Shown here: positions 6,657-21,720 of the stretch, one piece after another
How positions within the stretch are numbered: position 1 is the stretch's first letter
How the letters are laid out: each line of letters begins with the position of its first letter
NCBI GenBank assembly: GCA_030715195.1
Contig: JAUYVI010000009.1
Location: 62,001-126,000 of the forward strand
Length of the DNA stretch: 64,000 bases
Origin: Dongia sedimenti
GTDB lineage: Bacteria; Pseudomonadota; Alphaproteobacteria; Dongiales; Dongiaceae
Reading direction: 5' to 3'
Translations under genes and position numbers: made by a program
The notes under the pieces: generated by a model
The model's input: the letters and a program-made list of their open reading frames with translations, nothing else
Database searches by the model: none
What the model was told of the DNA's origin: nothing

Positions 6657-6666
6657 GGTTCTGCTC

Positions 6667-7320: not shown

Positions 7321-7334
7321 CGACTGTCTCCTGC

Positions 7335-8192
7335 TCAAAGAAAGGCGCGGATGCGTTCGGCGACCGTGTCGGCCGCGGTGTCCATGGCAAAGTGCCCGGC
7401 GTCGAGAATGTGAACCTCGGCCTCCGGCACGTCCCGACGGTAGGAATCCGGCTCCGAGACATCGAAGGAGGGGTCGTATCGGCCCCAGAGCACCAGCATC
7501 CGGGGCCGATGCGCGCGCATCCATTCCTGCCATTTGGGGTAGGAAGCGACGTTGTTGCGGTAGTCGTAGAAGAGCTCGGTTTGGATGTCGGCCTGCCCGG
7601 GCTGACTGAGGAAGGCGAACTCGTCGGTCCAAAGGTCCGGATCATAACGTTCCGGATTGGGATCGCTGCCGAGGTGGCGCTGGCGGGTCGCCTCGAGTGA
7701 AAGGAAGTTCTTGCGCAGCGTCGGCTCGTTCGGCGTGCGGTTGATCCAGAACTGGCGCCGGGCCGCCCAGAGCGAACTCAGGCCGCTGTCATGCGCGACG
7801 GCGTTCTGGATGATCATCGATTGGATGCGCTCCGGCTCCCGCAGTACCATGCGGAAGCCGACGGGGCCGCCGTAGTCCTGCACGAACATGTGATAGCGGC
7901 TGAGTGAGAGCCTCTCGGTGAAGCCGATGATGACTTCCGCCAGCCGTTCGAAGCTGTATTCGAACTCGCCGGGCTTTGGCCAAGCGCTGTGCCCAAAACC
8001 TGGATAGTCCGGTGCGACGAGCCGGTAGCGATCCGCCAAGCGCCGCAGCAACGGCTCGTACATGCGCGAGGAGGAGGGGAAACCATGCAGCAGCAGAATC
8101 ACCGGAGCATCGGCCGGGCCGGCCTCACGATAGAAGATCGGCAAGCCTTCGATCGTCACGGTCCTATAGCGGACCTGCGATTCAACAGTCAC
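7335..8192 (-). CDS. Alpha/beta hydrolase, haloalkane dehalogenase/epoxide hydrolase type
   Basis: A 285-aa cytoplasmic hydrolase. HGFPSSSRMY supplies the oxyanion loop, VQDYGGPVGF (~residue 107) has Asp as the nucleophile, LVLWGRYDP precedes the acid, and DAGHFAMD gives the catalytic His. An Asp nucleophile is typical of haloalkane dehalogenases and epoxide hydrolases rather than esterases. The start is a GTG at 8192 that overlaps the stop codon of the upstream gene (GTGA), indicating tight coupling. Together with its neighbours it forms a set of enzymes that open epoxides or remove halides. Confidence 0.8.
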   Translation of the reverse strand: MTVESQVRYRTVTIEGLPIFYREAGPADAPVILLLHGFPSSSRMYEPLLRRLADRYRLVAPDYPGFGHSAWPKPGEFEYSFERLAEVIIGFTERLSLSRYHMFVQDYGGPVGFRMVLREPERIQSMIIQNAVAHDSGLSSLWAARRQFWINRTPNEPTLRKNFLSLEATRQRHLGSDPNPERYDPDLWTDEFAFLSQPGQADIQTELFYDYRNNVASYPKWQEWMRAHRPRMLVLWGRYDPSFDVSEPDSYRRDVPEAEVHILDAGHFAMDTAADTVAERIRAFL

Positions 8193-9211
8193 AGCTGTCT
8201 CACGTCGATGATCGCCTGCGCGAATTCCCGAGGCGCCTCCTGGGGCAGGTTGTGACCGATGCCGCCGCGGATCGTGCGGTGCCGGTATTTGCCCGAGAAC
8301 TTCTTCGCGTAGGCGGACGGGTCGGGATGCGGCGCGCCGTTGGCATCGCCTTCCAGCGTTATGGTGGGCACGGAGATGGCAGGCGCGGCCGCCAGGAGCT
8401 TTTCCATCGCGTCGTATCTTGGCTCGCCCTCGGCAAGGCCGAGGCGCCAGCGGTAATTGTGGATCACGATCGCGACGTGATCGGGATTGTCGAAAGCCGC
8501 GGCGCTGCGCGCGAATGTCGCGTCGTCGAAGCGCCAATCCGGCGAGGCTGTCTGCCAGATGAGCCGCGCAAAGGCACGGGTGTTCTCCTGGTAGCCCAAC
8601 CGGCCACGCGCGGTGGCGAAATAGTATTGATACCACCAGGCCTGCTCGGCGTTCGGCGACAAGGGCTTGCGGTTCGCGGCCTGGCTGCCGATCAGATAGC
8701 CGCTGACGGAAACCAGGGCGACGCAGCGTTCGGGGGCGAGGGCGGCGACGATGTTGGCGGTGCGCGCACCCCAATCATAACCGGCGATGACGGCCCGCTC
8801 GATCTTGAGCGCATCCATGAAAGCGAGGATGTCGGCGGCGAGAGCCGCCTGCTGTGCGTTCCGCGGCGTTGTCTCCGACAGGAAGCGGGTCGTTCCGTAG
8901 CCGCGAAAATAGGGGATGATGACTCGAAACCCCTGCGCCGTCAGGATCGGCGCCACCGCGGCGTAAGAGTGGATGTCGTAAGGCCAGCCATGGAGCAGGA
9001 TCGCGGCCGGGCCGTTCACCGGACCTGCTTCGGCATAGCCGATGTCGAGCACCCCGGCCTTCACCTGGCGGATCTTGTCGAAGAGCAGATCCGACGATGC
9101 CCGCGCCCGTTTGGCGATTCCGAGTTCCGCCGCAGCGGCGATCATGGCGGCGGTGCCGACAAAGCGCCGGCGGTCCAGGTTGACGGTTTCCGCGCGCGGC
9201 GGCGTCTTCAT
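8189..9211 (-). CDS. TAT-exported alpha/beta hydrolase (epoxide hydrolase-like)
   Basis: A 340-aa protein. Residues ~12-35 form a twin-arginine signal (DRRRFVGTAA followed by an Ala-rich hydrophobic stretch), so it is exported folded to the periplasm. The mature part has HGWPYDIHSY, the nucleophile motif AGYDWGARTA (Asp), and a late GGIGHNLP with the catalytic His. ATG at 9211 with GAGGAAA upstream. It overlaps the following hydrolase gene by 4 bases and follows the Ohr gene by 25 bases, so it is in one operon with them. Substrate unknown; a cofactor-free haloperoxidase or epoxide hydrolase are both possible. Confidence 0.8.
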   Translation of the reverse strand: MKTPPRAETVNLDRRRFVGTAAMIAAAAELGIAKRARASSDLLFDKIRQVKAGVLDIGYAEAGPVNGPAAILLHGWPYDIHSYAAVAPILTAQGFRVIIPYFRGYGTTRFLSETTPRNAQQAALAADILAFMDALKIERAVIAGYDWGARTANIVAALAPERCVALVSVSGYLIGSQAANRKPLSPNAEQAWWYQYYFATARGRLGYQENTRAFARLIWQTASPDWRFDDATFARSAAAFDNPDHVAIVIHNYRWRLGLAEGEPRYDAMEKLLAAAPAISVPTITLEGDANGAPHPDPSAYAKKFSGKYRHRTIRGGIGHNLPQEAPREFAQAIIDVRQL

Positions 9212-9236
9212 GGCGATTTCCTCGGCTGGGTGCTGC

Positions 9237-9659
9237 TCAGACCGCGACGGTCGTCTGGACGTCGATGTTCCCGTGGGTCGCACGGGAATAGGGGCAGAGC
9301 GTGTGCGCTTCATCGACCAGTGCCTGGGCGATATTGCGCGGCAGCCCCGGCAGGATCACGTGCAGCCGGGCGCTGAGGGTGTAGAAGCCGTTGACCAGGC
9401 TGAGATCGACCTCGGCGTCGATCGCGAAGCCCTCGGGCAGGGTGACCTTGGCCCTGCGTGCCGCGATGCCGATCGCGCTCTCGAAACAGGTCGACCAGCC
9501 GGCGGCGAAGAGCTGCTCCGGATTGGTGCCGCCGCCATGCGTTCCCGGCAGCGTGGAGCGGATGTCGAGATTGCCGTCCGAGCTGCGCGAATGACCGCCT
9601 TCGCGACCGCCGTTGGTATGGACTTTCGCCGTATAGATGAGTTTGACTTGCTGATTCAT
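9237..9659 (-). CDS. ohr: Organic hydroperoxide resistance protein
   Basis: A 140-aa OsmC/Ohr-family thiol peroxidase. The two redox cysteines are in WSTCFESAIG (~residue 60) and HTLCPYSRA (~residue 123), and the N-terminal YTAKVHTNGGREG pattern is typical of Ohr. It reduces organic and fatty-acid hydroperoxides using lipoylated proteins. ATG at 9659 with GGGAGAAG upstream. No OhrR gene is adjacent; a strong terminator separates it from the upstream epoxide hydrolase gene, so its own promoter may lie in 9660-9765. Confidence 0.93.
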   Translation of the reverse strand: MNQQVKLIYTAKVHTNGGREGGHSRSSDGNLDIRSTLPGTHGGGTNPEQLFAAGWSTCFESAIGIAARRAKVTLPEGFAIDAEVDLSLVNGFYTLSARLHVILPGLPRNIAQALVDEAHTLCPYSRATHGNIDVQTTVAV

Positions 9660-9707
9660 GACGTTCTTCTCCCGTGACCGGCGCGCATCGCCGGGCCGTT
9701 GGTGTTT

Positions 9708-9764: not shown

Positions 9765-11045
9765 CTAGGCCCGCAGGGAGCGGAAGGCCGTTCGCAGCTC
9801 GGCGCAGAAGGCTTGGGTCTGCTCCCAGGCGGCGAAATGCCCGCCCTTCGGCAGCCGGTTGAAGTGGATGAGCTTGGGGAAGGCCTTTTCAGCCCAGCTC
9901 CTCGGTGCCGCGTAGATCTCGTCGGGGAAGACGCTGACGGCGACCGGGATCTGTATGTGCTTCGGCGCGAAGAAGGCGAGCTCGTTCTCCCAGTAGAGCC
10001 GGGCCGAGGAGACCGCCGTGCCGGTCAGCCAGTAGAGCGTGACGTTGTCGAGGATGTCATCGCGCGTCAGGCCCTCGCTGGCGCCATCGAAGACCCGGGC
10101 GATCAGTTCGTAGCTGCGGGCATCGTGATCGAGCATCCAGGCGGCAAGCCCGATCGGCGAATCCTCCAGCCCATAGAGCGTCTGTGGACGGTTCGCCATC
10201 TCCTGTGCATAACCGAGGCCGTGCTTGTAGAAGAAGTCGAGCTGGTAATAGGCCTTCTTCTCGTCCTCGGAGAGCCCGGCCGGCGCCTTGCCGCCGACAG
10301 CGAGCGCCTTGGCGATGTCGTCGGGGATGGTCGCCGGCATGTTGGTGTGGATCGCGATCAACTCCGGCGGCGCCTGCACCGCCATCTGCTCGGAGACCGC
10401 GTCGCCCCAGTCGCCGCCCTGGGCGACGAAGCGGGTGTAGCCGAGGCGCTTCATCAAGGTGGTCCAGGCGCGGGCGATGCGCTGCGGGTTCCAGCCGGTC
10501 TCGGTGGGCTTGGCCGAGAAGCCGTGGCCGGGCAGCGACGGGATGACCACGTCGAAGGCCTCGGCCGCGGTGCCGCCGTATGCCGTCGGGTCGGTCAGCG
10601 GACCGATCACCTTCAATTGCTCGATCACCGAGCCGGGCCAGCCATGGGTGATGATGACCGGCAGTGCGTTGGCATGCTTGGAGCGGACGTGAATGAAATG
10701 GATGTCCAGGCCGTCGATCTCGGTCAGGAACTGCGGATAGCTGTTGAGCTTCGCCTCGATCTTGCGCCAGTCGTGGCTGTTCTCCCAGTAGGCGGCGAGC
10801 TTCTGCATGGTGGCGAGCTGCACGCCCTGGGAAGCGTCGTTCACCAGCTCCCGCGTCGGCCATTTGGTGGCGGCGACCCGGCGCTTCAGGTCGGCCAGTG
10901 CCTCATCGGAAAAGCGGACATTGAAGGGGCGAATGTCGTCCGCGGTGGCCGCATAGAGCGCGGATGGGATCATGGTGGCGGCCCCGGCGACGGCCGCGGC
11001 CGCGAGAGCTTCGCGCCGCGTGATTGACAGATGATTCTCCGACAT
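9765..11045 (-). CDS. TAT-exported epoxide hydrolase (EHN type)
   Basis: A 426-aa protein. Residues 1-35 hold a twin-arginine signal (SITRREALAAAAVAG). The mature protein starts with the epoxide hydrolase N-terminal domain (IRPFNVRFSDEALADLKRR, typical of microsomal-type enzymes). The alpha/beta core follows with HGWPGSVIEQ, the Asp nucleophile in AQGGDWGDAVS, and PKGGHFAAWE carrying the catalytic His. It would hydrolyse epoxides in the periplasm. ATG at 11045 with CAGGAGA. A palindrome matching those in front of three other local genes sits 98 bases upstream, suggesting control by the FixJ-type regulator at 16687. Confidence 0.88.
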   Translation of the reverse strand: MSENHLSITRREALAAAAVAGAATMIPSALYAATADDIRPFNVRFSDEALADLKRRVAATKWPTRELVNDASQGVQLATMQKLAAYWENSHDWRKIEAKLNSYPQFLTEIDGLDIHFIHVRSKHANALPVIITHGWPGSVIEQLKVIGPLTDPTAYGGTAAEAFDVVIPSLPGHGFSAKPTETGWNPQRIARAWTTLMKRLGYTRFVAQGGDWGDAVSEQMAVQAPPELIAIHTNMPATIPDDIAKALAVGGKAPAGLSEDEKKAYYQLDFFYKHGLGYAQEMANRPQTLYGLEDSPIGLAAWMLDHDARSYELIARVFDGASEGLTRDDILDNVTLYWLTGTAVSSARLYWENELAFFAPKHIQIPVAVSVFPDEIYAAPRSWAEKAFPKLIHFNRLPKGGHFAAWEQTQAFCAELRTAFRSLRA

Positions 11046-11133
11046 GACGTGTCTCCTGTTCGGCCATCGTTGTGGCTGGCTGCGTTTGACGTAGGTCATA
11101 GTCGGGATCCCGCCGCCCAGCGGCGATTGAACA

Positions 11134-11152
11134 TAGGTATCGGGAAGACCTA
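11134..11152 (-). promoter_or_regulatory. Predicted FixJ-type operator upstream of the epoxide hydrolase
   Basis: TAGGTAT-N5-AGACCTA, an imperfect palindrome matching TAGGTAT-N5-ATACCTA, centred 98 bases from the ATG at 11045. A second half-site (TAGGTAT) follows at 11151. A further ATACCTA half-site at 11232-11238 is followed by TATAAT at 11241-11246, a possible promoter for the divergent kinase gene. No gene lies between 11046 and 11328. Confidence 0.6.
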
Positions 11153-11328
11153 GGTATCGGCCGGAGAGGGTGCCGGCAGGGGCGAAAATGCCCCTGGAAA
11201 GACCCCCAAATGGCCGAAACCTTCCAAACCGATACCTACGTATAATGCGCCACCGCCCGACGGCTGGCGCATCCTTGCCGGACGAGGCGGTCCTCGCTCA
11301 CACCGTCCCCAATTGCCGGCGCATCGAA

Positions 11329-14300
11329 ATGAATCTTCACGTACAGAATGCCGAGAGCGACCCGCTGAAGCGCTGCTTCGCCAGCCTGGGCGCAGTCCTG
11401 GCGGCGGAGTCTGCAGCGGAATCTCCAGTCGCGGCGATCGTGGAAAGCCAGCTCGATTCGGTCCTGGTGGCGCTGGACCTGCAAGTCGCCTGTTTGCGTC
11501 TACAGACGGAAATCGGCGGCGTGCCTGCCGAGATCCTGAGAACGGCTCCGGCCGGTGGCGAGGAGATCACCCTGGCCACGCTGCCGCTCGGCATCGCAGG
11601 CGATATAGGATCGCTGACGTTCGGCGCCACTCGCGCTGGGTTCCCGCTCGATTCTGAGCAGCTGGTTCTGGAGGTCGCGGCGATCAAGGCCGCCAATATC
11701 CTCCTCGCCGCCTTGCGCACCGACGAGGTGCGGAAGGTGAAGGCGGAGGCGGCCGGCTATAAGCAGCATATGCTGCATCAGTTGGTCGACAGCATCGCCG
11801 CCGAAGTCACGGTTTCAACCCCGGAAGGCGAGGTCGTCTTCGTCAACCGGACCTGCATCGAGCGCACCGGACGCCCGTTCAACGGCCATTCGGATTGGGC
11901 GACCAGCGATCTGCTGCACCCCGAGGATCTGCCCCGCGTGCGGGAAGCCTGGGCACGCGCGTTGCAGACGACAGGGACCTATGAGGTCGATGTGCGCTCG
12001 CTTTGCGCGGACGGCGTCTATCGCTGGGTCCATTCGCACGGCTTTCCGATCCGGGCCGCCGACGGTGCGGTGCAAAACTGGTGCACGCTGCATCTCGATA
12101 TCCACGACCGCAAGATGGCCGAGGAGTCGCTCAGGGCAAGCGAGGCGATGCTGAAGTCGATGGTGGACAGCATCGCCGCGCCGCTCGGATTCTTCAAGCC
12201 GACCGGCGAGCTGGAGGTCGTCAACCGCCAGGTCGAAGATTACTTCGGCATTCCCTTCGACGAGCTCTCGAACTGGGACAACGTCGTCCATCCGGAGGAC
12301 GTCACCGGGTCGCGGGCCGCCTGGAATCGCACGCTGGCGACTGGCGAGCCGTATCATTACGAGGCGCGCATCCGCCGAGCGGACGGTGAGTATCGCTGGA
12401 ACGACCACCGCGGCTATCCGATGCGGGACGAGCAAGGTCGCATCGTCCGCTGGTGCGTCCTGCAGACTGATATCCATGACCGACGGCGCGCGGAAGAGGC
12501 GCTGGCGGAGAGCGAGCGGCGGCTGGAGAAGATCATCAACACCATCCCTGCAATGGCCTGGACGGCCAATCCAGACGGCACCTGCGACTTCTTCAACCGA
12601 CACCACCTGCACTATGTCGACCGCGCGCTGAAAGACATGCAGGGCCTCGGCTTCGTTTCTACCTTCCATCCCGACGACGTCGATAGGTTGATGGGCGCGT
12701 GGCAGACGATGCTGGATTCGGGCCGCGGCGGCGAGGTCGAAGGCAGGATCCGCCGGCGTGACGGGGAATATCGCTGGTGCCTGTTCATCACCAATCCCCA
12801 GCATGATGCCCAAGGCCGAGTGGTCAAATGGTTTGGCGTCAACATCGACATCGAGGACCGCAAGCGGGCCGATGAAAGCCTGCGTGCGAGCGAGCTCAAT
12901 CTGCGCGGGCTGACCGAGACGATTCCGCAGAAAATGTTCGGCGCCGCGCCGGACGGCTCGGTCAACTACATCAATAACGAGATGCGCGGCTGGTTCGGGC
13001 GCAGCGACACCGCCATCATGGAGGACTGGGTGAACCTTGTTCACCCGGACGATCGCGAGTCCGCGATCAAGGCCTGGACCGGCACCGTTGCCGCCGGGAC
13101 CCCGTACCATCATCAACTCCGATTTCTCCACCGGCATGGTGAGCATCGGTGGTGCGACGTCAAGGCACGCGCGCTGCGGGACGAGAATGGCGCCATCATC
13201 GCCTGGCATGGCGTCGTCAACGATATCCACGACCAGAAGCTGGCTGAAGATGCGCTCCGCGCCAGCGCCGGCAATCTGTCACAGATCATCAACTCGATCC
13301 CCGGCCTGACCTGGACCGCGCAGCCGGACGGTGCGGCGGAATTCATCAGCAAGCACTATCTGGACTATGTCGGCCTGTCGCTCGAGGGTGCGACCGGGCT
13401 CGGCTGGATCCAGGCGGTTCATCCCGAGGATCGCGACGGCTTGCTTGCCATCTGGAGCCGCGGCTCCGCGTCCGCTCGCCCCGGCGAGGCGGAGGCTCGG
13501 ATCCGGCGAAGCGACGGGGAGTATCGCTGGTTCCTGTTTCGATACAACCCGTTCTTCGACGACAAGGGTCGGCTGGTCAAATGGTTCGGCATCAGCATCG
13601 ACATCGAGGATCGCAGACGCGCCGAGGAAAGAGTGCGCGAGAGCGAGATGAACTTCCGACGCCAGACGGAAACCATCCCGCAAATGCTGTGGAGTGCGAC
13701 GGCGGAAGGGGCGATCGACTATTGCAACGAACGCCTGCTGGAATACAGCGCGCTCACCGCCGAAATCGTGATGAACGGCGGCTGGGTCAATCTGCTGCAT
13801 CCGGATGACCGTGAACCAACCGGAAAGATCTGGCGGCACTGCACCGCCACGGGCGAGCCTTACACGGTGGAGGTTCGTCACTTCCACGTGGCCAGTCAGA
13901 GCTATCGGTGGATCCTTACCATGGCGCTGCCGCTGCGCGATGCCGAGGGCCGGATCCTCAAGTGGTATGGCTCCTGTGTCGATATCCACGACCGGAAGCT
14001 TGCCGACCAGGCGCTGGTCGCGAGTGAGCGCCGGCTGCAATCGATCATCAATGCCATTCCGGCGTTAGTCTGGTCGGCCAAGTCCGATGGGAGTGCGGAT
14101 TTCGCCAATCAGTACTATCGCGACTACGTTGGGAAGCCGATGGACGAGATCTTGGGTTCAGGCTGGGCGGAGGCACTCCACCCGGACGACCTGCACAGCC
14201 TGGCCGCCGACTGGAAAGCGATCCGCGAATCCGGGAAGGCTGGAGAAAGCCAGGCGCGCATGCGGCGGGCCGACGGCGAGTATCGTTGGTTTCTGTTCCG

Positions 14301-16272
14301 CATGAGCCCTGTGGTCGATGAGTTCGGCAACGCCCGATGGTTCGGTGTGAACATCGACATCGAAGAACGCAAGCGGGCCGACGATGCGCTGCGCGCGAGT
14401 GCGCTCAATTTGCGCCGGCAGACCGAGACGATTCCACAGATGCTGTGGAGCGCCTTGCCGGACGGGTCGTTCGACTATTGCAACGCCCGTTTTCTGGACT
14501 ACACCGGTTCGGGATCGAAAGGTGTCATGGGCGATGGCTGGAAACACGCGATCCATCCGGAGGACCGCGAAGCGACGGCGCGCGCCTGGGCACACAGCGT
14601 TGCGACGGGCGAACCCTATTCCGTCGAGGTCCGGAAGTTCTGCGCCGCCGCCGAAGACTATCATTGGTGCCTGACCACAGCACTTCCGCTGCGCGACGAC
14701 GACGGCAACATCATCAAGTGGCACGGGTCCAGCGTCGACATCCATGACCGCAAACTGGCCGAGCAGGCACTGAAGGAGAGCGAGCGCCGGCTGGATCAGA
14801 TCGTCAACACCATCCCGGGAATGGCCTGGTCGGCCAATCCGGACGGCATGTGCGACTTCTTCAACCGATATCATCTCGACTATGTCGGGCTTCCGGTCGA
14901 GGAGATGCGCGGCACCGGCTTCGTGCAGACCTTCCACCCCGACGACCTGCCGCAACTCCTCGGCCCATGGCAGGAGATGCTGGCGACCGGTCGCGGCGGC
15001 GAGGTCGAAGGAAGGATCCGCGATCGCAACGGCCAGTATCGCCGCTTCCTGTTTCGCACCAATCCGCTGTTCGACGCGCACGGCAAGCTGGTCAAGTGGT
15101 TCGGCGTCAATATCGATATCGAGGATCGCAAGCGCGCTGAGGACAAGCTCAGGGAGAGCGAGCTCAACCTGCGTCAGCTGACCGAGACCATCCCGCAGAT
15201 GCTGTGGAGCACCGATCCGGACGGAAAGGTCGAGTACTCCAACACCCGTCTGCAGGAATTTATGGGTATCACGGCGGAAGAGTTCGAGGGCCACAGCTGG
15301 GCGGATTGCCTGCATCCCGACGACCGCGAGCCGACGGCTCGGCTTTGGGCGCATTGCGTCGCGACCGGGACCCCCTATCGCACGGAGGCGCGGTTCTGTT
15401 ACGGCGGCAAGGGCACCTATCGCTGGTGCCTCACCACCGGCCTGCCTCTACGCGACGAAGATGGGCGGATCGTGAAGTGGCACGGTGCCTGCGTCGATCT
15501 CCACGATTGGAAGACCGCGCAGGACGAGCTGCGCGAGACGCAGTCCGAGCTCGCCCATGTCACGCGGGTGATGACCATGGGCCATCTCACGGCCTCGATC
15601 GCCCATGAATTGAATCAGCCCCTGTCTGGCATCATGACGAATGCCGGAACCGGCCTGCGCATGCTGACTGCCGAGCCGCCAAATGTGGAGGGCGCCCGAG
15701 AAACCGCCCGCCGCACGATCCGGGACGCCAAGCGCGCGTCGGAAGTGATCAGCCGCCTGCGCGCGCTGTTCGCCAAGCGAGCCACGGCGTCGGAAATCGT
15801 CGACCTGAACACCGCAGTACAAGAGGTCATTGCATTGTCATCGAATGAATTGCAGCGAAACGGCGTCATCCACCGTGTGAATCTCAAGGATAACCTGCCC
15901 TATGCAATGGGCGATCGCATCCAGCTCCAGCAGGTGATCCTCAATTTCATCCTGAACGGTGCCGAAGCGATGGAGACCGTCGGGGATCGTCCCAGGGAGT
16001 TGGTGATCTCGACGGATGTGGACGACGTCGGCCACGTGCGAGTTTCGGTCAAGGATGTCGGTGTCGGCGTCAAGCCCGAGCTCGCGGAGAAGATCTTCTC
16101 GCCTTTCTACACCACCAAGAGCAGCGGCATGGGCATCGGCCTCTCGGTCAGCCGCACGATCGTCGAGAATCACCAGGGCCGTCTGTGGGCCGAGGGTAAC
16201 GACGGGCCGGGCGCCACCTTCTCCTTCTCCCTGCCTTCGACGCTGGCGACGGGCCAGGTGGGGAAGGCATGA
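11329..16272 (+). CDS. Giant hybrid-free sensor histidine kinase with ten PAS domains
   Basis: About 1647 aa with no transmembrane segment. An N-terminal ~140-residue GAF-like region is followed by ten consecutive PAS_3/PAC modules of ~126 residues each, every one ending in a DIHDRK/DIEDRK-type PAC tail. From the third module they alternate between an ERRL...INTIP type and an ELNLR..TETIPQMLW type, giving four doublets with a ~756-base period. The C-terminus has HisKA with the phospho-His in SIAHELNQPL, then HATPase with N (LNFILNGAEAM), DVGVGV and GMGIGL boxes, close to FixL kinases. The frame is open upstream to a GTG at 11170; the ATG at 11329 begins the recognisable protein. The next gene starts within its stop codon. 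Confidence 0.9.
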   Translation: MNLHVQNAESDPLKRCFASLGAVLAAESAAESPVAAIVESQLDSVLVALDLQVACLRLQTEIGGVPAEILRTAPAGGEEITLATLPLGIAGDIGSLTFGATRAGFPLDSEQLVLEVAAIKAANILLAALRTDEVRKVKAEAAGYKQHMLHQLVDSIAAEVTVSTPEGEVVFVNRTCIERTGRPFNGHSDWATSDLLHPEDLPRVREAWARALQTTGTYEVDVRSLCADGVYRWVHSHGFPIRAADGAVQNWCTLHLDIHDRKMAEESLRASEAMLKSMVDSIAAPLGFFKPTGELEVVNRQVEDYFGIPFDELSNWDNVVHPEDVTGSRAAWNRTLATGEPYHYEARIRRADGEYRWNDHRGYPMRDEQGRIVRWCVLQTDIHDRRRAEEALAESERRLEKIINTIPAMAWTANPDGTCDFFNRHHLHYVDRALKDMQGLGFVSTFHPDDVDRLMGAWQTMLDSGRGGEVEGRIRRRDGEYRWCLFITNPQHDAQGRVVKWFGVNIDIEDRKRADESLRASELNLRGLTETIPQKMFGAAPDGSVNYINNEMRGWFGRSDTAIMEDWVNLVHPDDRESAIKAWTGTVAAGTPYHHQLRFLHRHGEHRWCDVKARALRDENGAIIAWHGVVNDIHDQKLAEDALRASAGNLSQIINSIPGLTWTAQPDGAAEFISKHYLDYVGLSLEGATGLGWIQAVHPEDRDGLLAIWSRGSASARPGEAEARIRRSDGEYRWFLFRYNPFFDDKGRLVKWFGISIDIEDRRRAEERVRESEMNFRRQTETIPQMLWSATAEGAIDYCNERLLEYSALTAEIVMNGGWVNLLHPDDREPTGKIWRHCTATGEPYTVEVRHFHVASQSYRWILTMALPLRDAEGRILKWYGSCVDIHDRKLADQALVASERRLQSIINAIPALVWSAKSDGSADFANQYYRDYVGKPMDEILGSGWAEALHPDDLHSLAADWKAIRESGKAGESQARMRRADGEYRWFLFRMSPVVDEFGNARWFGVNIDIEERKRADDALRASALNLRRQTETIPQMLWSALPDGSFDYCNARFLDYTGSGSKGVMGDGWKHAIHPEDREATARAWAHSVATGEPYSVEVRKFCAAAEDYHWCLTTALPLRDDDGNIIKWHGSSVDIHDRKLAEQALKESERRLDQIVNTIPGMAWSANPDGMCDFFNRYHLDYVGLPVEEMRGTGFVQTFHPDDLPQLLGPWQEMLATGRGGEVEGRIRDRNGQYRRFLFRTNPLFDAHGKLVKWFGVNIDIEDRKRAEDKLRESELNLRQLTETIPQMLWSTDPDGKVEYSNTRLQEFMGITAEEFEGHSWADCLHPDDREPTARLWAHCVATGTPYRTEARFCYGGKGTYRWCLTTGLPLRDEDGRIVKWHGACVDLHDWKTAQDELRETQSELAHVTRVMTMGHLTASIAHELNQPLSGIMTNAGTGLRMLTAEPPNVEGARETARRTIRDAKRASEVISRLRALFAKRATASEIVDLNTAVQEVIALSSNELQRNGVIHRVNLKDNLPYAMGDRIQLQQVILNFILNGAEAMETVGDRPRELVISTDVDDVGHVRVSVKDVGVGVKPELAEKIFSPFYTTKSSGMGIGLSVSRTIVENHQGRLWAEGNDGPGATFSFSLPSTLATGQVGKA
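12514..15528 (+). repeat. Tandem PAS-doublet coding repeat (~756-base unit, four copies)
   Basis: The equivalent ERRL-type codons begin at 12514, ~13267, 14026 and 14782, spacings of 753, 759 and 756 bases. Each unit encodes one A-type and one B-type PAS module. Divergence between copies is moderate, so the duplications are not recent. Confidence 0.8.
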
Positions 16273-16655
16273 TGGCCCAAGGGACATACATCGCCGTGAT
16301 CGACGACGACGAATCCGTGCGCGAGGCCCTGCCGGACCTGATCCGCTTGTTCGGGCACGAGGCCGCCGCCTTCTCCTCGGCGGAGGAGTTCCTGGCGTCG
16401 GACCGCGTCGACCAAGCGAAATGCCTGGTGCTCGACATCGCCATGCCCGGCATGTCGGGCATCGAGCTCCAGCGCGAGCTGGCGAGGCAGGGCAGGAAGA
16501 TCCCGATCATCTTCATCACCGCGCATGGCGACGAGCAGATCTGCCAGCGCCTGCGCCGGCCCGGCGCCGTCGAATGCCTGCTGAAGCCGTTCACCGACAC
16601 GACGCTGCTCGACGCCCTCAACGGGCTGCTCAAATCCTCTCAGTCACCGTCCTGA
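16269..16655 (+). CDS. Stand-alone response-regulator receiver
   Basis: A 128-aa CheY-like receiver with no output domain. The acidic pocket is in VIDDDESVRE, the phospho-acceptor Asp in LVLDIAMPG (~residue 56), with the T of FITAHGD and the K of LLKPF all present, so it should be phosphorylated. The ATG at 16269 overlaps the kinase stop codon (ATGA), so it is made with the kinase. Sequence resembles the FixJ receiver group. It probably acts as a phosphate sink or a phosphorelay intermediate between the kinase and the DNA-binding regulator that follows (inference). Confidence 0.9.
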   Translation: MMAQGTYIAVIDDDESVREALPDLIRLFGHEAAAFSSAEEFLASDRVDQAKCLVLDIAMPGMSGIELQRELARQGRKIPIIFITAHGDEQICQRLRRPGAVECLLKPFTDTTLLDALNGLLKSSQSPS

Positions 16656-16686
16656 AACTTGCGAGCGATCGCGACCGGGGGTTAAC

Positions 16687-17352
16687 ATGCAATGGGAGCG
16701 TTTTGTGACCGCCAAGCCGGACTCCAATATCGTGGCCGAAGTCACGCCGACCGTCTACGTTGTCGATGACGACATTTCGGTGCGCGAAGCCCTGGAAGCC
16801 CTGATCCGCGAGGGCGGCTGGCATCCGCGCGTGTTCGAATCGGCCCGCGCCTTCCTGGCACATCCGCGGCCGCAGGTCCCGAGCTGCCTGGTGCTCGACG
16901 TCTCGCTACCGGATCTCAACGGCCTCGAGCTGCAGCAGCAGATCGCGAGCGGTGACGAGCTGCCGATCATCTTCATCACCGGATACGGCGACGTGCCGAT
17001 GACCGTCCGGGCGATGAAGGCGGGCGCCATCGAGTTCCTGACCAAGCCGTTCGAGGACCAGTCACTGCTGGACGCGATCCGCGGCGCGGTCGCGCGCAGC
17101 ACCGCGGCGCTCGCCGAGGACGCCGAGCTCGACAAGCTCCGCCGGCGCCATGCGTCGCTCAGCCAGCGGGAGCGCGAAGTCATGTCGCTGGTGGTCACCG
17201 GCTTGATGAACAAGCAGGTCGGCGGCCGGCTCGGGATCAGCGAGATCACGGTGAAGGCGCATCGCGGCAAGGTGATGCAGAAGATGGGCGCGACCTCGCT
17301 GGCCGACCTCGTCAACATCGCGGCTCGGCTCGGCATTTCCAGCCGCAACTGA
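16687..17352 (+). CDS. FixJ-type two-component regulator with LuxR HTH
   Basis: A 221-aa regulator. Receiver: YVVDDDISVRE, phospho-Asp in LVLDVSLPD, FITGYGD, LTKPF. Output: a GerE/LuxR helix-turn-helix at ~155-210 (LSQREREVMSLVV...ISEITVKAHRGKVMQKM). It follows the stand-alone receiver by 31 bases and is therefore the likely DNA-binding end of the PAS-kinase pathway. The ATG at 16687 lies behind GGGGG. Palindromes repeated in front of neighbouring genes, one of them 13 bases after this gene's stop, are its probable binding sites. Confidence 0.92.
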   Translation: MQWERFVTAKPDSNIVAEVTPTVYVVDDDISVREALEALIREGGWHPRVFESARAFLAHPRPQVPSCLVLDVSLPDLNGLELQQQIASGDELPIIFITGYGDVPMTVRAMKAGAIEFLTKPFEDQSLLDAIRGAVARSTAALAEDAELDKLRRRHASLSQREREVMSLVVTGLMNKQVGGRLGISEITVKAHRGKVMQKMGATSLADLVNIAARLGISSRN

Positions 17353-17364
17353 TCTCCTGCGATA

Positions 17365-17387
17365 CCAAGGTGTCGGCGATACCTTGG
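17365..17387 (+). promoter_or_regulatory. Predicted FixJ-type operator upstream of the crotonase gene
   Basis: Arms CCAAGGTGTC and GATACCTTGG separated by three bases, one mismatch between the 10-base arms. The centre is 94 bases before the ATG at 17470. It shares the core GGTGTCGGCGATACC with the site at 19728. Confidence 0.7.
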
Positions 17388-17469
17388 TTGGATGGAAGCC
17401 ACGCGGCGCCTCTGTCATCAAGGGTCGCCCGGGGATCGGCTCCGGTGCATTCGGTCACCGGAGGATTCC

Positions 17470-18309
17470 ATGTACGACAGCGAGCTCGAGAATCAGATCC
17501 GCCTCGAACGACGCTCTGCCGGTTATTGGCGCGTCACCTTTGATATCCAGCCCCTGAACATCTTCGGCCCCAAGAACATGTCGGCGCTGCAGGCCATCGT
17601 ATCCGCGCTCGAAACCGACAAGGACGTCAAGGTCGTGGTCTTCGACAGCGCTATCGAAGGCTTCTTCCTCAGCCATTACGACTTTCTCGCCAGTCCCGAG
17701 GACACACTCGGCCTGCCGCTCGGCCCGACCGGCCTGCAGCAGCTGCCCGATGCCTTGTGCCGCCTCAGCCGCGCACCGGTCGCCTCGATCGCCAAGATCC
17801 GCGGCCGCTGCACGGGCGTCGGCGGCGAGCTGGCCGCCGCCTGCGACATGCGCTTCGCGAGCCGGGAGAAGGCATTCTTGTCGCAATGGGAGGTTGGCGC
17901 CGGACTGGTTCCCGGCGGCGGGCCGATGGCACGGCTGCCGCGCCTGATTGGCCGGGGCAGGGCATTGGAGGTGCTGCTCGGTTCGGACGACATTCCGGGC
18001 GACGTGGCCGAGCTCTATGGCTATGTGAACCGGTCCTTCCCGGATGAGGACCTGGACGGCTTCGTCGAGGACCTGGCCCAGCGGATCGCCTCTTTCGAGA
18101 AGCATGCGATCGCCGAAACCAAGCGCCTCACCAACCTGGCCGATCTTCCGCCGGATTCGGAAATTGAGCCGGAATGGAACGCTTTCATGTCGTCGCTGGC
18201 GCGCCCGGCGACCCAGGCGCGGATCAAGAGGCTGATGGAGAAAGGCTTTCATCAGCCCGGCGATGTCGAATCCCGTCTGACCTATCATACCGGCCAGCTC
18301 GGCCGCTGA
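17470..18309 (+). CDS. Enoyl-CoA hydratase/isomerase-family protein
   Basis: A 279-aa crotonase-fold protein. It has the oxyanion-hole region SIAKIRGRCTGVGGELAAACDMRFAS split as in crotonases, the loop EGFFLSHYDF near residue 65, and the trimer helix with EVGAGLVPGGGP. The usual catalytic Glu pair is not obvious, so the reaction could be hydratase, isomerase or hydrolase. ATG at 17470 behind GGAGGA; the frame stays open to 17392 but without a ribosome binding site. It is preceded by the palindrome at 17365 and followed by a terminator, so it is probably monocistronic and under control of the FixJ-type regulator. Confidence 0.8.
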   Translation: MYDSELENQIRLERRSAGYWRVTFDIQPLNIFGPKNMSALQAIVSALETDKDVKVVVFDSAIEGFFLSHYDFLASPEDTLGLPLGPTGLQQLPDALCRLSRAPVASIAKIRGRCTGVGGELAAACDMRFASREKAFLSQWEVGAGLVPGGGPMARLPRLIGRGRALEVLLGSDDIPGDVAELYGYVNRSFPDEDLDGFVEDLAQRIASFEKHAIAETKRLTNLADLPPDSEIEPEWNAFMSSLARPATQARIKRLMEKGFHQPGDVESRLTYHTGQLGR

Positions 18310-18325
18310 ATCGCCGCTGTCCAAA

Positions 18326-18367
18326 GGCCCGGGTGCCGGATGACTGCCGGCGCTCGGGCCTGTTTTA
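18326..18367 (+). terminator. Rho-independent terminator after the crotonase gene
   Basis: A 14-bp GC stem (18326-18339 / 18347-18360, two mismatched or G-T pairs) with a 7-base loop, followed by TGTTTTAT. It lies 17 bases after the stop codon. Confidence 0.75.
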
Positions 18368-18407
18368 TGAGGTCTTCTTGCAGACGTCCGGCCGACCTAT
18401 CCAAACG

Positions 18408-18426
18408 TAGGTATCGCCAATACCTA
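18408..18426 (+). promoter_or_regulatory. Predicted FixJ-type operator upstream of the small-protein/cupin operon
   Basis: A perfect palindrome TAGGTAT-CGCCA-ATACCTA, centred 93 bases before the ATG at 18510. It is the most symmetric member of the local set. Confidence 0.75.
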
Positions 18427-18509
18427 TGGTGAATGGCCCCACCACCCATCGTCGTGAGATCACAGTGCGAGGCGCGCCGGTGCGCCGTTCCGCAAGGGAG
18501 GAGTTTGCG

Positions 18510-18686
18510 ATGGTATTGAGATCAAGAGCTCCGGAACCCCTCGAAGAGATCGAAGACCTCTATCCCTCGCTGTTTGCAGGCGTTCATCCGCTTCCGCCCG
18601 TCCATGACCGCCCGGAGCCGAGGCAAGGCAACCGCGACGGCCAGGGACGCGTCGCCCCGATCCGGTCCAAGGAGCGCGTCCAGTGA
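18510..18686 (+). CDS. 58-aa small protein of unknown function
   Basis: Start ATG at 18510 has an excellent AAGGGAGGAG seven bases upstream. The frame is also open to 18426, but that stretch overlaps the operator. The protein starts with acidic LEEIEDLYPSLFAG and continues with a Pro/Arg-rich, probably disordered tail; no cysteine, no membrane segment. Its stop codon overlaps the cupin start (TGATG), so it is the first gene of the cupin operon. I recognise no family. The strong ribosome binding site and regulated promoter argue that it is really made. Confidence 0.6.
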   Translation: MVLRSRAPEPLEEIEDLYPSLFAGVHPLPPVHDRPEPRQGNRDGQGRVAPIRSKERVQ

Positions 18687-19141
18687 TGCAGCGTTCCAGC
18701 AAAGCGCCGCAATGGCGGTCGATCCGCCCGAACGTTCACCCACCACTGAAGTTCGTCCTGCCCGAGGCGATGGACTGGCGGCCGTTCGCGGCCTTTCCAC
18801 CGGAAGCGCGGCTGGCGATCGTCGCCGGCCGTCCGACCGAAGCTGGCATGTATGTGATCCGGGTAAAGGTGCCGAACGGCATCAAGCTGATGCCGCATCG
18901 CCACCCTGAGAACCGGATCTACACCGTCATGTCCGGCGTGTTCTACGTCGGGGTGGGCGAGCGCTTCGACGAGACCGCGCTGGTCGCCTATCCGCCCGGC
19001 AGCGTCGTGCTGCTACCCGGCGATACGCCGCATTTCCATTGGGCCAAGTCCGGCGAATACATCACCCAGGTCATGGGCACGGGTCCGCTTGGCATCGAAT
19101 ACCTCGACTGGACGGACGATCCGAGGAGCTATCACCGATGA
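18686..19141 (+). CDS. Cupin-domain protein
   Basis: A 151-aa single-domain cupin. The metal-binding motif 1 is MPHRHPENRIYTVMSG (His, His, Glu) and motif 2 is PGDTPHFHW (His), so a metal-dependent dioxygenase or small-molecule sensor role is likely. A GTG at 18683 is also in frame; the ATG at 18686 overlaps the previous stop. The following gene starts inside this gene's stop codon (ATGA). Expression should follow the palindrome at 18408. Confidence 0.85.
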   Translation: MQRSSKAPQWRSIRPNVHPPLKFVLPEAMDWRPFAAFPPEARLAIVAGRPTEAGMYVIRVKVPNGIKLMPHRHPENRIYTVMSGVFYVGVGERFDETALVAYPPGSVVLLPGDTPHFHWAKSGEYITQVMGTGPLGIEYLDWTDDPRSYHR

Positions 19142-19716
19142 GCGAGCTTGCACGCCGGTTTACATCACGCAGGTCCGACATGGCGCCCGGCGCCTCTCGG
19201 ATGGGGATTGCGTCGATCGAGTGCTGGCCCGCGGCCGGCGGCGGATTGCTGGTCGGGCTGGCCGATCCGATGCTGGCGGGCGACGCCCCGTTGCGGGCTC
19301 CGATCAAGACGGTGTTCCTGCGGCTCGACGGCAACGGCGAGATTCGCTGCATCCTGCCTTATGTCACGGTGGATGCGGAGCCTTCCGCATGCATCCGTGC
19401 CCTGATCGCCGAAGAGCTCGCCGTTTCGGAAGGTTCGGTCACCGTCGATGACGCGGCCTCCAGTTACGGGATTGTGGACCTGCATCCCAGCGTCGAGCAC
19501 AACCTGCAGGTACTGGCGGCGGCGACGCGCGCCCTGCTCATCGCCGCCGCTGCTGATAACTGGCAAATTCCGGCCCTGGCCTGCGAAGTCCAGGGCGGGA
19601 AGGTTCGAAGCTCCGGCCGAGCCGCCTCCTATCGCGAGATCGCCGTGGACGCGGCGCTTGCCGCCGTGCCACGCACGTTGCAGTTGCGCTGCGGCCGGCC
19701 GGTCGACATCGCATGA
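19138..19716 (+). CDS. Stand-alone fragment-like protein related to molybdopterin oxidoreductase beta subunits
   Basis: A 192-aa protein. The pattern RCILPYVTVDAE...IAEELAVSEGSVTVDDA followed by LQVLAAATRALLIAAAAD and GRAASYREIAVDAA matches a segment of isoquinoline 1-oxidoreductase beta (IorB)-type molybdenum hydroxylases, normally ~730 aa. The catalytic and cofactor-contact parts are absent, and no small [2Fe-2S] subunit gene is near. Yet the gene has an intact frame, an ATGA overlap with the cupin and lies inside a regulated operon, so it seems a maintained domain rather than debris. A ligand-binding or chaperone-like use is possible. Family reading is from pattern only. Confidence 0.55.
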   Translation: MSELARRFTSRRSDMAPGASRMGIASIECWPAAGGGLLVGLADPMLAGDAPLRAPIKTVFLRLDGNGEIRCILPYVTVDAEPSACIRALIAEELAVSEGSVTVDDAASSYGIVDLHPSVEHNLQVLAAATRALLIAAAADNWQIPALACEVQGGKVRSSGRAASYREIAVDAALAAVPRTLQLRCGRPVDIA

Positions 19717-19727
19717 GCAGGAATACC

Positions 19728-19746
19728 AAGGTGTCGGCGATACCTA
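19728..19746 (+). promoter_or_regulatory. Predicted FixJ-type operator upstream of the DJ-1/PfpI operon
   Basis: AAGGTGT-CGGCG-ATACCTA, centred 85 bases before the ATG at 19822. Its left half and spacer are identical to the site at 17365, and its right half matches the site at 18408. Confidence 0.7.
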
Positions 19747-19821
19747 TGTGCAAGTGATTTGCGGCGCCGGCCAGCGCCATATCTCCTTCAGTTGAACCGC
19801 CTGATTGCAAGGAGATGCGCA

Positions 19822-20532
19822 ATGAAGATCCTGATGGTGCTGACCTCCCATGACAAGCTCGGCAATACCGGCCGCAAGACCGGTTTCTGGCTCGAGGAGT
19901 TCGCCGCACCGTACTACGTGTTCAAGGATGCCGGCGTCGAGCTGACCTTGGTCTCGGTCAAGGGCGGCCAGCCGCCGATCGATCCCAAGAGCGATTTGCC
20001 GGAGAACCAGACCGACGCCATGACCCGGTTCAAGAACGACCCGGCGGCGCAGAAGGACCTGGCGAATACCGGCACACTCAACGGCGTGCGGTCGGAGAGT
20101 TTCGACGCCGTGTTCTATCCGGGCGGCCATGGACCGATGTGGGATCTGGTCGACAATGCCGATTCCATCGCCCTGGTGGAATCCTTCTACAATGCCGGCA
20201 AGCCGGTCGCGGCTGTCTGCCATGCACCGGCGGTGCTGCACCGCGTCACCTACAAGGGCGCGCCGATCGTCCAGGGCAAGCGGGTCACCGGCTTCGCCAA
20301 CAGCGAGGAAGAAGCGGTGCAGCTCACGAATATCGTGCCTTTCCTGGTCGAAGACGAGTTGAAGCGGCTCGGCGGCAAGTTCGAGAAGGCCGCGAAGGAC
20401 TGGGCGCCGCATGTGGTCACCGATGGGCGGCTGATCACCGGCCAGAATCCGGCTTCGTCCACCGGCGGGGCGGAGGCTTTGGTGAAACTGCTCCGGGATA
20501 TGCAGTCGTCCCGCGGCGCGACGGCGGCGTGA
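19822..20532 (+). CDS. DJ-1/PfpI-family (Hsp31-like) protein
   Basis: A 236-aa protein of the class I glutamine amidotransferase-like superfamily. The nucleophile elbow is AAVCHAPAVL (~residue 133, Cys), preceded by FYPGGHGPMWDL, and the acidic partner lies in KTGFWLEEFAAPYY; this combination is typical of Hsp31/glyoxalase III relatives. Likely functions are methylglyoxal detoxification or protein deglycation and repair under carbonyl stress. ATG at 19822 behind AAGGAGATGCGCA. It heads an operon with the flavodoxin and GlcG/HbpS genes and sits behind the 19728 palindrome. Confidence 0.88.
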   Translation: MKILMVLTSHDKLGNTGRKTGFWLEEFAAPYYVFKDAGVELTLVSVKGGQPPIDPKSDLPENQTDAMTRFKNDPAAQKDLANTGTLNGVRSESFDAVFYPGGHGPMWDLVDNADSIALVESFYNAGKPVAAVCHAPAVLHRVTYKGAPIVQGKRVTGFANSEEEAVQLTNIVPFLVEDELKRLGGKFEKAAKDWAPHVVTDGRLITGQNPASSTGGAEALVKLLRDMQSSRGATAA

Positions 20533-20536
20533 AGCC

Positions 20537-21196
20537 ATGCCTTTGGACAACGTCATTGATGCCACGGTCACGGTCGCAGTCGTCTACCACAGCGGCTACG
20601 GCCACACGGCCAAGCAGGCCGAGGCGGTCAAGCGAGGAGCCGGAAGAATCCCCGGCGTCTCCGTCCTGATGCTGACCTCCGACGAGGCCCAGCGGCAGCT
20701 GGAGGCGCTCGACGGAGCCGACGCGATCATTTTCGGAGCGCCGACCTATATGGGGAAGGCTTCCGCCCAGTTCTGCGCCTTCATGGATGCGACCTCGAAG
20801 GTGTTCGCGACGGGTGCGTGGAAAGACAAGATCGCGGCCGGCTTCACCAACTCGGCCTCACGCTCCGGGGACAAGCTCGCGACCTTGACGCAGTTCGCCA
20901 TACTGGCCGCGCAGCTCGGGATGCATTGGGTGAGCCTCGGTCTGGTGGCCGGCAACAATTCATCCGACGGTTCGGAGGAGGATCTCAACCGGCTCGGCTT
21001 CTTCCTCGGCGCCGCCGCGCAATCCAACTTCGACGAAGGCCCGGACCGCGCGCCGCCACCCGCCGATCTCCGGACCGCCGAGCATCTCGGGGAGCGTGTC
21101 GCCCGAGTGGCGCAGCAATTCGTCCGCGGCCGGCTGCCGGCCCAGCCCGACGGAGTACGTGAGGATCATCTTCGACGACAAGGAGTTGAGCGATGA
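20537..21196 (+). CDS. Flavodoxin-fold NAD(P)H:quinone reductase-like protein
   Basis: A 219-aa protein. VVYHSGYGHTAKQAEAV is the FMN phosphate-binding loop, and GAPTYMGKASAQFCAFMD and FTNSASRSGDK contact the isoalloxazine ring as in WrbA/NAD(P)H dehydrogenase (quinone) proteins. It probably does two-electron quinone reduction to avoid redox cycling. Starts 4 bases after the DJ-1 stop. The last ~25 residues are hydrophilic and unusual for the family. The next gene begins inside its stop codon. Confidence 0.88.
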   Translation: MPLDNVIDATVTVAVVYHSGYGHTAKQAEAVKRGAGRIPGVSVLMLTSDEAQRQLEALDGADAIIFGAPTYMGKASAQFCAFMDATSKVFATGAWKDKIAAGFTNSASRSGDKLATLTQFAILAAQLGMHWVSLGLVAGNNSSDGSEEDLNRLGFFLGAAAQSNFDEGPDRAPPPADLRTAEHLGERVARVAQQFVRGRLPAQPDGVREDHLRRQGVER

Positions 21197-21720
21197 CTAG
21201 GCTTCGGCTTGCGCAACTGTGCCTCCCCGTTACCTTGATCGCAACCCTGGTGACGCCGGCGACCGCCGGCGCGGTTCCGCAGGGTTATAGCTACAGCGTC
21301 CCCTTGGACCTGGCATTGGAGGCCGCACGCGAGGCGATCCGCGTTTGCGAATCCAATGGCTATCGCGTCACCGCTACGGTGGTCGACATGGCTGGAACGC
21401 CAAAGGTCGTGCTTCGCGGCGACAAAGCCACAGTGCATACGGGCGAATCGAGCTTCAGAAAAGCTTTCACCGTGGTCACGCTCGGACCAGAGTTCAATTT
21501 CGATGCGTCGAGCGGCTTTTTCCAGATGCAAAAGACCAATCCCTTCGCGAGCCAACTCGCGACGGTGCACAACGTGATGGCACTGCCGGGTGCCGTAGCC
21601 TTCATGAGCAAGGGCGAGATGATTGGCGCCCTGGGCATCGGCGGTGCTCCCGGCGGCGACAAAGACGAGGTTTGCGCCCGCGCCGGCGTCAACAAGGTGA
21701 AGAGCAGGCTCCCACAATAG
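21193..21720 (+). CDS. Secreted GlcG/HbpS-family heme-binding-like protein
   Basis: A 175-aa protein with a Sec signal (residues 1-26, hydrophobic core ending in ATAGA). The mature part is a GlcG/HbpS domain: ALEAAREAIRVCESNGYRV, VVDMAGTPKVVLRGD, then SFRKAFTVVTLG and GALGIGGAPGGDKDEVCA. Such proteins bind heme or cobalamin-like ligands and often accompany redox-stress sensors. ATG at 21193 overlaps the previous stop (ATGA); it ends the operon. Confidence 0.87.
   Translation: MTRLRLAQLCLPVTLIATLVTPATAGAVPQGYSYSVPLDLALEAAREAIRVCESNGYRVTATVVDMAGTPKVVLRGDKATVHTGESSFRKAFTVVTLGPEFNFDASSGFFQMQKTNPFASQLATVHNVMALPGAVAFMSKGEMIGALGIGGAPGGDKDEVCARAGVNKVKSRLPQ

Follow-up and report, generated by a model that had tools for sequence, protein, structure and literature searches.

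Candidate double-box operators of a many-PAS two-component system in front of putative detoxification operons in Dongia sedimenti

We analysed a window of 64,000 nucleotides from Dongia sedimenti (GenBank assembly GCA_030715195.1, contig JAUYVI010000009.1, positions 62,001 to 126,000; coordinates below count from the first letter of this stretch), in which a two-component system with a ten-PAS histidine kinase and a FixJ/NarL-type response regulator lies among several copies of one palindromic element. The copies stand in front of genes for an epoxide hydrolase, a crotonase-fold enzyme, a small open reading frame (ORF) and a DJ-1/PfpI protein (Table 1), and we treat them here as candidate operators of that system. 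The kinase also has a weak FecR_C match. No tRNA was found within the window, and base composition has no sharp edge at the locus.

Table 1. Genes and candidate operators of the locus, in window coordinates (aa, amino acids)
Feature	Position	Strand	Basis
Histidine kinase P0003, 1647 aa; ten PAS stretches, HisKA, HATPase_c	11329..16272	+	Pfam; start codon inferred, no clear Shine-Dalgarno sequence
Single-domain receiver, 128 aa	16269..16655	+	Response_reg over nearly whole length; overlapping weak FleQ match
FixJ/NarL-type response regulator P0001, 221 aa; recognition helix SEITVKAHRG (185-194); proposed binder	16687..17352	+	Response_reg and GerE; overlapping Sigma70_r4 matches; closest solved chain 1yio
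Crotonase-fold enzyme, predicted target	17470..18309	+	ECH_1
Small ORF, no family match, predicted target	18510..18686	+	From sequence
Cupin, inferred to share the operon of the small ORF	18686..19141	+	Weak: Cupin_7, E=5.6e-6, 26.6 bits, just under cut-off 27
192-aa protein, no family match, inferred to share the operon of the small ORF	19138..19716	+	Pfam scan
DJ-1/PfpI protein, predicted target	19822..20532	+	DJ-1_PfpI
WrbA-like quinone oxidoreductase, probably in DJ-1 operon	20537..21196	+	FMN_red; NCBIfam PRK03767 below its cut-off
HbpS-like protein, possibly in DJ-1 operon	21193..21720	+	HbpS-like
Epoxide hydrolase, predicted target	9765..11045	-	EHN
OsmC-like protein, inferred in epoxide hydrolase operon	9237..9665	-	OsmC
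Two alpha/beta hydrolases, isochorismatase-fold enzyme and protein without family, inferred in epoxide hydrolase operon	6132..9217	-	Family search
Candidate double-box operator, epoxide hydrolase operon; GTTCAAT end towards gene; -10-like GACTAT at expected offset	11126..11160	-	27.0 bits (relatives' matrix); genome-wide model E=1.5e-3
Candidate double-box operator upstream of crotonase gene	17359..17393	+	31.9 bits; genome-wide model E=2.9e-6
Candidate double-box operator upstream of small ORF and cupin operon; weakest of four	18400..18434	+	21.1 bits; genome-wide model E=0.077
Candidate double-box operator upstream of DJ-1, WrbA-like and HbpS-like genes; -10-like CCATAT at expected offset	19720..19754	+	34.2 bits; genome-wide model E=2.1e-6
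Candidate single proximal box CGATACCTACGTATAAT upstream of kinase operon; 99-100 bases from kinase ATG 11329	11230..11246	+	Best proximal-arm score of window, 23.8 bits

With at most three mismatches allowed, TAGGTATNNNNNATACCTA has exactly four matches in the window, at 11134, 17367, 18408 and 19728, where dinucleotide shuffles gave a mean of 0.08 and a count of four was reached in 0 of 100 shuffles. A sequence-only reading of this DNA had described these places as four TAGGTAT-N5-ATACCTA-type palindromes; all are present, three of them where it put them and the second beginning at 17367 rather than 17365. The spacing it gave holds: counted from the centres at 11143, 17376, 18417 and 19737, the start codons for the epoxide hydrolase (ATG at 11045 on the minus strand), the crotonase (17470), the small ORF (18510) and the DJ-1 protein (19822) are 98, 94, 93 and 85 bases away, and the FixJ/LuxR-type regulator gene does lie among the sites.

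The anatomy of the element was learned from relatives. Fetching loci with the regulator P0001 gave 376 stretches that matched a pattern, 341 of which encode a relative, and the best 80 of these 341 were used. A half-site matrix was refined on the relatives' loci alone; its seed was the window's inner core and its outer parts were learned from the relatives, so that, when the window is tested, circularity enters partly through the inner part of the matrix and not through the outer parts. The inner palindrome AGGTAT-N5/6-ATACCT is enriched in the 80 loci, and its matches have long flanks in common. At 16 bits or more, the matrix found 104 sites in 51 of the 80 loci, across three phyla; the reversed-sequence control for the double site gave 0 at that threshold and 2 at 8 bits. 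No double site of at least 16 bits was present in the FixJ-paralogue set, which consists of 28 short loci totalling 100 kb. The operator so defined is 35 or 36 bp long and consists of two back-to-back 17-bp boxes (CGATAC-N4-GTATCG-like), each arm being an inverted repeat in itself, of the form GATAC-N4-GTATC. One base separates the arms in 76 of the 104 sites and two bases in the other 28, making the arm the rigid unit. We rejected the TAGGTAT-N5-ATACCTA palindrome as the unit, since relatives keep the outer parts and the gap between the arms varies. Because the arm is the unit, has an AC-N4-GT core in common with StyR and agrees with the CrbR ACTU box at 13 of 17 bases, the operator can be read as a pair of StyR/ACTU-type dimer boxes set back to back, with the palindrome as their putative junction. 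The earlier proposal of an operator, a local regulon and a FixJ-type binder thus gains comparative support, while the palindrome it named would be a seam between two boxes.

Sites were oriented from the ends of their arms, one resembling CAAT and the other ATCGG, an asymmetry that is partly by construction; this worked for 101 of the 104 sites, with 3 ties dropped. Gene starts and the -10-like block described next played no part in this orientation. The proximal arm has the consensus CGATACC[A/T]TCGT[C/G]CAAT, then a weaker NGATT, and the distal arm the consensus CGATACCTTNGTATCGG. Taking as a gene start an ATG with a Shine-Dalgarno-like stretch and a 70-codon open frame, 60-130 bases from the centre, we found a start on the proximal (CAAT) side only at 39 oriented sites, on the distal side only at 6, on both sides at 7 and on neither at 49 (39 against 6, p = 5e-7, sites of related loci not being independent). 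An A/T-rich -10-like block recurs at a fixed offset, some 40-45 bases from where the proximal arm begins, and conservation stops beyond the operator and this region. If the block is a -10 box, the proximal arm would lie at about -51 to -35, with a transcription start some 50 bases from the operator centre and a leader of 30-50 bases. The 85-98-base spacing in the window would then follow from a promoter that is built into the element. Starts chosen by rule in the relatives lie 43-295 bases from the operator (98 ORFs, median 109), a spread that includes gene-calling errors, and on annotated plasmids two hydrolase genes start 88 and 86 bases from the operator, two others 174 and 212 bases from it.

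This layout bears on two other accounts of the repeats. As remnants of a dispersed repeat or mobile element, they would not be regulatory DNA at all, which would suit the patchy distribution of the system and its presence on plasmids; the end of conservation beyond the operator and the -10-like region, the direction towards gene starts and the lack of scattered strong matches in the window's genome make this very improbable. It is unlikely, to a lesser degree, that the element is a repressor or dual operator at which the regulator, perhaps with the inner palindrome as its single site, would block transcription until the signal arrives. That palindrome is symmetric in itself, and in the available portion of PMC2442086 StyR is described as repressing once its other sites, STY1 and STY3, are occupied as well. 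The element, however, lies before the -10-like block and borders on the -35 region without covering the start, much as the activator box ACTU does, and the window promoters have poor -35-like hexamers, as activator-dependent promoters would.

The four sites are probably five, as the sequence-only reading missed the single box upstream of the kinase operon. Its score was unreached in 2.3 million reversed-control positions; it is without a good distal arm, and the two-box model (R1) does not report it. Among the relatives' kinases, 17 of 60 have an oriented box of at least 14 bits near the 5' end of the frame, where the reversed control (10 in 2.3 million positions) predicts about 0.2, and at annotated kinases the box lies 78 bases (Sinorhizobium meliloti pSymA) and 81 bases (S. 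fredii) away. The simplest reading of this fifth box is likely feedback, with the system regulating its own kinase operon.

Scans of whole genomes placed the operator often, and not always, near such regulators. A pattern drawn from the window sites found no further place at 0-1 mismatch in the whole 6.13-Mb genome, a circular result in that the pattern consists of its own sites. We then relied on a 65-position model built from sequence only, using the 81 operators left when oriented sites that scored below 28 bits, were cut off or were duplicated had been dropped from the 101. In the window's genome it returned the four sites, their reverse-strand echoes and three other places, so that the genome-wide scan that had been proposed as a check leaves three sites clear and the fourth weak, with no scatter of strong matches. 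The best place outside the window (E=0.054) ranks ahead of the weakest window site (0.077); it lies at 167138-167167 of contig C24, about 7 kb from a paralogous regulator at 159750 of the same contig (genome G000). Within the window, the next-best place for the relatives' half-site matrix scores 14.4 bits, at 47489.

Among the relatives' genomes, 24 of 29 had matches to the model at E <= 0.01, a count in which one site can appear on both strands. All 10 matches in genome G048 lie within 31 kb on the contig of locus L083. Granulicella sp. L46 (G047; loci L074 and L079) had 28 matches with both strands counted, the most of any genome searched, and among the matches listed nearly all are on one contig that holds two regulators. 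Matches away from the regulator were seen in G041 (one, 0.9 Mb off), in G043 and G050 (some on other contigs or distant) and in the fragmented G052 (several contigs). The five genomes without matches have regulators with Met (three), Gly (one) or Ala (one, L081, which has a single box) at residue 191, a position discussed below. Among 41 near relatives, only the window's genome matched, apart from one weak place in G005 (E = 0.0042).

When 289 genomes of the class were scanned with the motif alone, 3 matched at E <= 1e-4, one of them the window's own, and all 3 are among the 6 that match P0001 at E<=1e-60. This co-occurrence is of limited value because the fitting regulator of one genome, G322, is a weaker match and another, G289, yielded no readable fitting helix. 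In G322, the sites (249,830-269,808) enclose a SEITVKAHRG regulator at 254,915 that is 48% identical to P0001 and was sought only afterwards; a 54% identical paralogue with KLYRA is on another contig, and a further relative at 237,323 is unmatched by the helix pattern. The fragmented G289 has operators, an intact closest relative with Val191, and two 59-60% identical relatives that stop at contig edges before the helix. Four plasmid loci outside the training set held eight double sites, and their reversed sequences none. The regulator through which S. meliloti pSymA was reached has Ile191, and the operator there adjoins a second PAS kinase and receiver; an unannotated SEITVKAHRG frame (L169:2002-2691), missing from a gene table known to be incomplete, follows the receiver gene of this second kinase. 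The other three plasmid loci have SEITVKAHRG regulators together with operators.

The probable binder of the operator is the 221-aa regulator. Across the 221 alignment columns, residue 191 ranked first for association with a strong proximal box (Fisher p = 2.6e-7, kinship ignored): such a box is present in 49 of 53 loci with Ala, 4 of 4 with Thr, 6 of 12 with Val, 0 of 6 with Met, 0 of 3 with Ile and 0 of 1 each with Gly and Phe. With the double site as the label, residue 191 was again first (p = 5e-8, kinship ignored), and residue 45 of the receiver was almost equal. The best solved relative of P0001 is 1yio (E=1.3e-61), named 'response regulatory protein' in PDB. We take this chain to be StyR. 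Its residue numbering agrees with that in PMC5874301, where, in the available portion, StyR Lys175, Val176 and His179 are named as putative operator contacts. In the alignment of 1yio with P0001, K175 corresponds to K190, V176 to A191 and H179 to G194. We favour this regulator because the residue best associated with the boxes matches a proposed StyR DNA contact, and because an Ala191 regulator adjoined the operators in two genomes that had first been represented by another paralogue.

In the tree, the main Met191 group (L068, L075, L091 and L096) and a Val191/Arg194 group fall inside the 69-row group that holds the window, with other Val and Met rows outside it. The best proximal boxes of the Val191/Arg194 group start with TTA or TAA, not CGA, in 5 of 6 loci, the sixth, L119, being without a strong box. 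We regard it as improbable that the element is bound by some other DNA-binding protein, whether its gene is nearby or elsewhere, and that the FixJ-like regulator is merely linked to the element: 21 of the 80 loci with a regulator relative have no strong proximal box, but the top association falls on a recognition-helix residue, the AC-N4-GT spacing of the box is that of StyR-type operators and its first bases differ in the Val191/Arg194 group. The four Met191 loci carry symmetric boxes, TAATACCTTGGTATTAA for example, in which the CAAT end is missing, and this sub-clade possibly has an operator of another kind. A search for exact palindromes in 12 loci with Met191 or Val191 found short ones common to at most 7 of the 12. 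The regulator match in Cupriavidus lacunae (L093:8001-8789) spans more than its own length, and the best frame breaks off in the helix-turn-helix, so this is probably a broken gene.

Several observations weigh against reading the sites as operators of this system. The 80 loci were selected through the regulator itself, 29 of them are without a double operator, and of the 21 without even one strong proximal box four have Ala191 (among these four are L106, with a double site, one broken gene and one locus cut 200 bases before the regulator). The association of residue 191 ignores relatedness and has a receiver residue as its runner-up. Not every match in other genomes sits at a regulator, and the operators of G289 stand beside no readable fitting helix, the intact closest relative having Val191. 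In the window, the third operator in order (18400-18434) is weak, and -10-like hexamers are poor in three of the five promoters, GACTAT and CCATAT being the two at the expected offset. Single boxes are less specific than double ones: 169 reach 16 bits in the 80 loci, but so do 2 in the reversed control and 2 among the paralogue loci (in L049 and L050; 100 kb for the whole set). The single-domain receiver could, moreover, be the main partner of the kinase.

We nevertheless put the probability at about 0.8 that the adjacent two-component system uses these sites as activator operators, a reading for which the comparison offers support in the conserved operator, its direction to the gene start, the -10-like block, the tie to Ala191 and Thr191 regulators and the presence of sites near them. 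From these comparisons we infer binding, dimer count, activation over repression, transcription starts, operon extents, the role of phosphorylation and the signal, and propose that the ten-PAS kinase would sense a signal, probably a small organic one, and phosphorylate the FixJ/StyR-like regulator. One regulator dimer would sit on each 17-bp box, and the full operator, with box centres 17-18 bp apart, would hold two dimers. The gene-side box, abutting the -35 region, would recruit RNA polymerase by class II activation, each operator would drive one detoxification operon, and the single box upstream of the kinase would provide the feedback control.

Open reading frames following oriented sites indicate what the system may control. 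Among 98 of them, Abhydrolase_1 (18), the epoxide hydrolase N-terminus (13), short-chain dehydrogenases (9), crotonases (5) and extracytoplasmic function (ECF) sigma region 2 (5) were counted; these counts overlap, and 25 of 74 families are those listed. The commonest recognised targets would thus be alpha/beta hydrolases, many of them epoxide hydrolases, short-chain dehydrogenases and crotonases. Besides the five with ECF sigma region 2, two LysR proteins and three histidine kinase domains were observed among the 98, and the system may feed further regulators. With kinship and locus length ignored throughout, homologues of the window's genes were found in loci with and without sites as follows: epoxide hydrolase 16 of 51 and 2 of 29, crotonase 12 of 51 and 2 of 29, OsmC 8 of 51 and 0 of 29, the alpha/beta hydrolase at 8189 12 of 51 and 8 of 29, DJ-1 1 of 51 and 0 of 29, and cupin 0 of 51 and 1 of 29. 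These counts make the epoxide hydrolase a typical target and the DJ-1 and cupin genes not typical. Plasmid loci carry glutathione S-transferase, a VOC protein, MsrA/MsrB and an NADPH-dependent FMN reductase near the system. The gene content points to a role in defending against reactive organic compounds, for example epoxides and aldehydes, or in making use of them. The label of a stress regulon given by the sequence-only reading accordingly suits the genes (epoxide hydrolase, OsmC, DJ-1, WrbA-like), while the inducing signal is not part of that support. Two alpha/beta hydrolases of the window (9765-11045 and 8189-9217, minus strand) have N-termini that, by eye, read like twin-arginine translocation (Tat) signals, and part of the detoxification may be periplasmic.

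The system is also not peculiar to this kinase, since a related kinase and single-domain receiver stand directly upstream of the regulator in 41 of the 80 relatives' loci, 31 of these with the operator. In Mesorhizobium ciceri, the gene after the regulator encodes a large serine/threonine kinase-histidine kinase (L142:16725-22223). Double sites occur in loci of Pseudomonadota (Alpha-, Beta- and Gamma-), Acidobacteriota and one Armatimonadota bin, bins being able to hold stray contigs. Six congeners were sampled: the best match had 42% identity in two, and four had none at E <= 1e-40. Regulator relatives at E <= 1e-50 occur in 282 plasmid records, 9 of them at 60-80% identity, with operators looked at in four loci. 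Horizontal transfer of the system is likely on this distribution. We give even odds to a broader account, a portable regulon in which a sensor with many PAS domains and a StyR-like regulator whose recognition helix has switched, its second base-reading position being Ala, would have spread across phyla and plasmids with detoxification operons, each marked by one common double-box promoter for two side-by-side dimers, and in which sub-clades that changed residue 191 would have changed or lost the operator.

Operator and promoter together would offer a readable tag for the targets of a large uncharacterised sensor family, with targets listable in any genome, and the gene content of the tagged operons would be a route to the inducing signal. 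The natural change at residue 191 alongside the operator would make the switching of DNA recognition in FixJ/NarL regulators testable residue by residue, and rhizobial plasmids, including a Sinorhizobium meliloti pSymA, carry the system in tractable hosts.

A search of titles and abstract openings in the open-access literature with the gene set and consensus strings found no description of this system, and the known systems are compared here as far as the available portions of their sources describe them. StyS/StyR and TodS/TodT, two-component systems for aromatic hydrocarbons, resemble it in regulator architecture (receiver plus GerE/LuxR-type helix-turn-helix), AC-N4-GT box core and PAS-containing kinase. 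The available portion of PMC6456745 added nothing on the box. Their activating box lies near -40, and here the position, about -51 to -35, is deduced from the fixed -10-like block. They differ in the recognition residues (K190-A191-G194 here, K-V-H there), in the box, which has equal spacing and other outer bases than the ATAAACN4GTTTAT recognised by StyR-type regulators (PMC5874301), and in that here two boxes stand back to back, the kinase has ten PAS stretches and several tagged operons share one neighbourhood. For CrbS/CrbR, the relatives' proximal arm CGATACCATCGTCCAAT agrees at 13 of 17 bases with the ACTU box TACTACCATCGTCGAAT, which occupies -52 to -36 of the acs promoter, immediately before the RpoD promoter (PMC5715377), so that both boxes would adjoin a promoter. 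However, ACTU is described as one imperfect inverted repeat (PMC5715377), CrbS has an SLC5 transporter domain of which the Pfam scan of P0003 found none, and the CrbR targets serve acetate utilisation in Gammaproteobacteria. FixL/FixJ belongs to a common regulator superfamily (NCBIfam FixJ model, E=6.9e-60), but P0001 scores 202.1 bits, below the NF006900 cut-off of 255, and the FixJ chain 5xso has a different recognition helix. TdiS/TdiR likewise pairs a PAS kinase with a NarL/FixJ-type regulator and has a palindrome upstream of -35, but the proposed TdiR palindrome GGTGTTCGCACC is unlike the box here. BiofilmReg of Burkholderia contaminans was rejected as a counterpart, its regulator being from another family in the available portion of PMC5192318. 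Taken together, the comparison suggests that the system works like StyR/TodT and CrbR activation, and that its recognition residues, box sequence and doubled layout make it a variant of these systems rather than a member of any of them.

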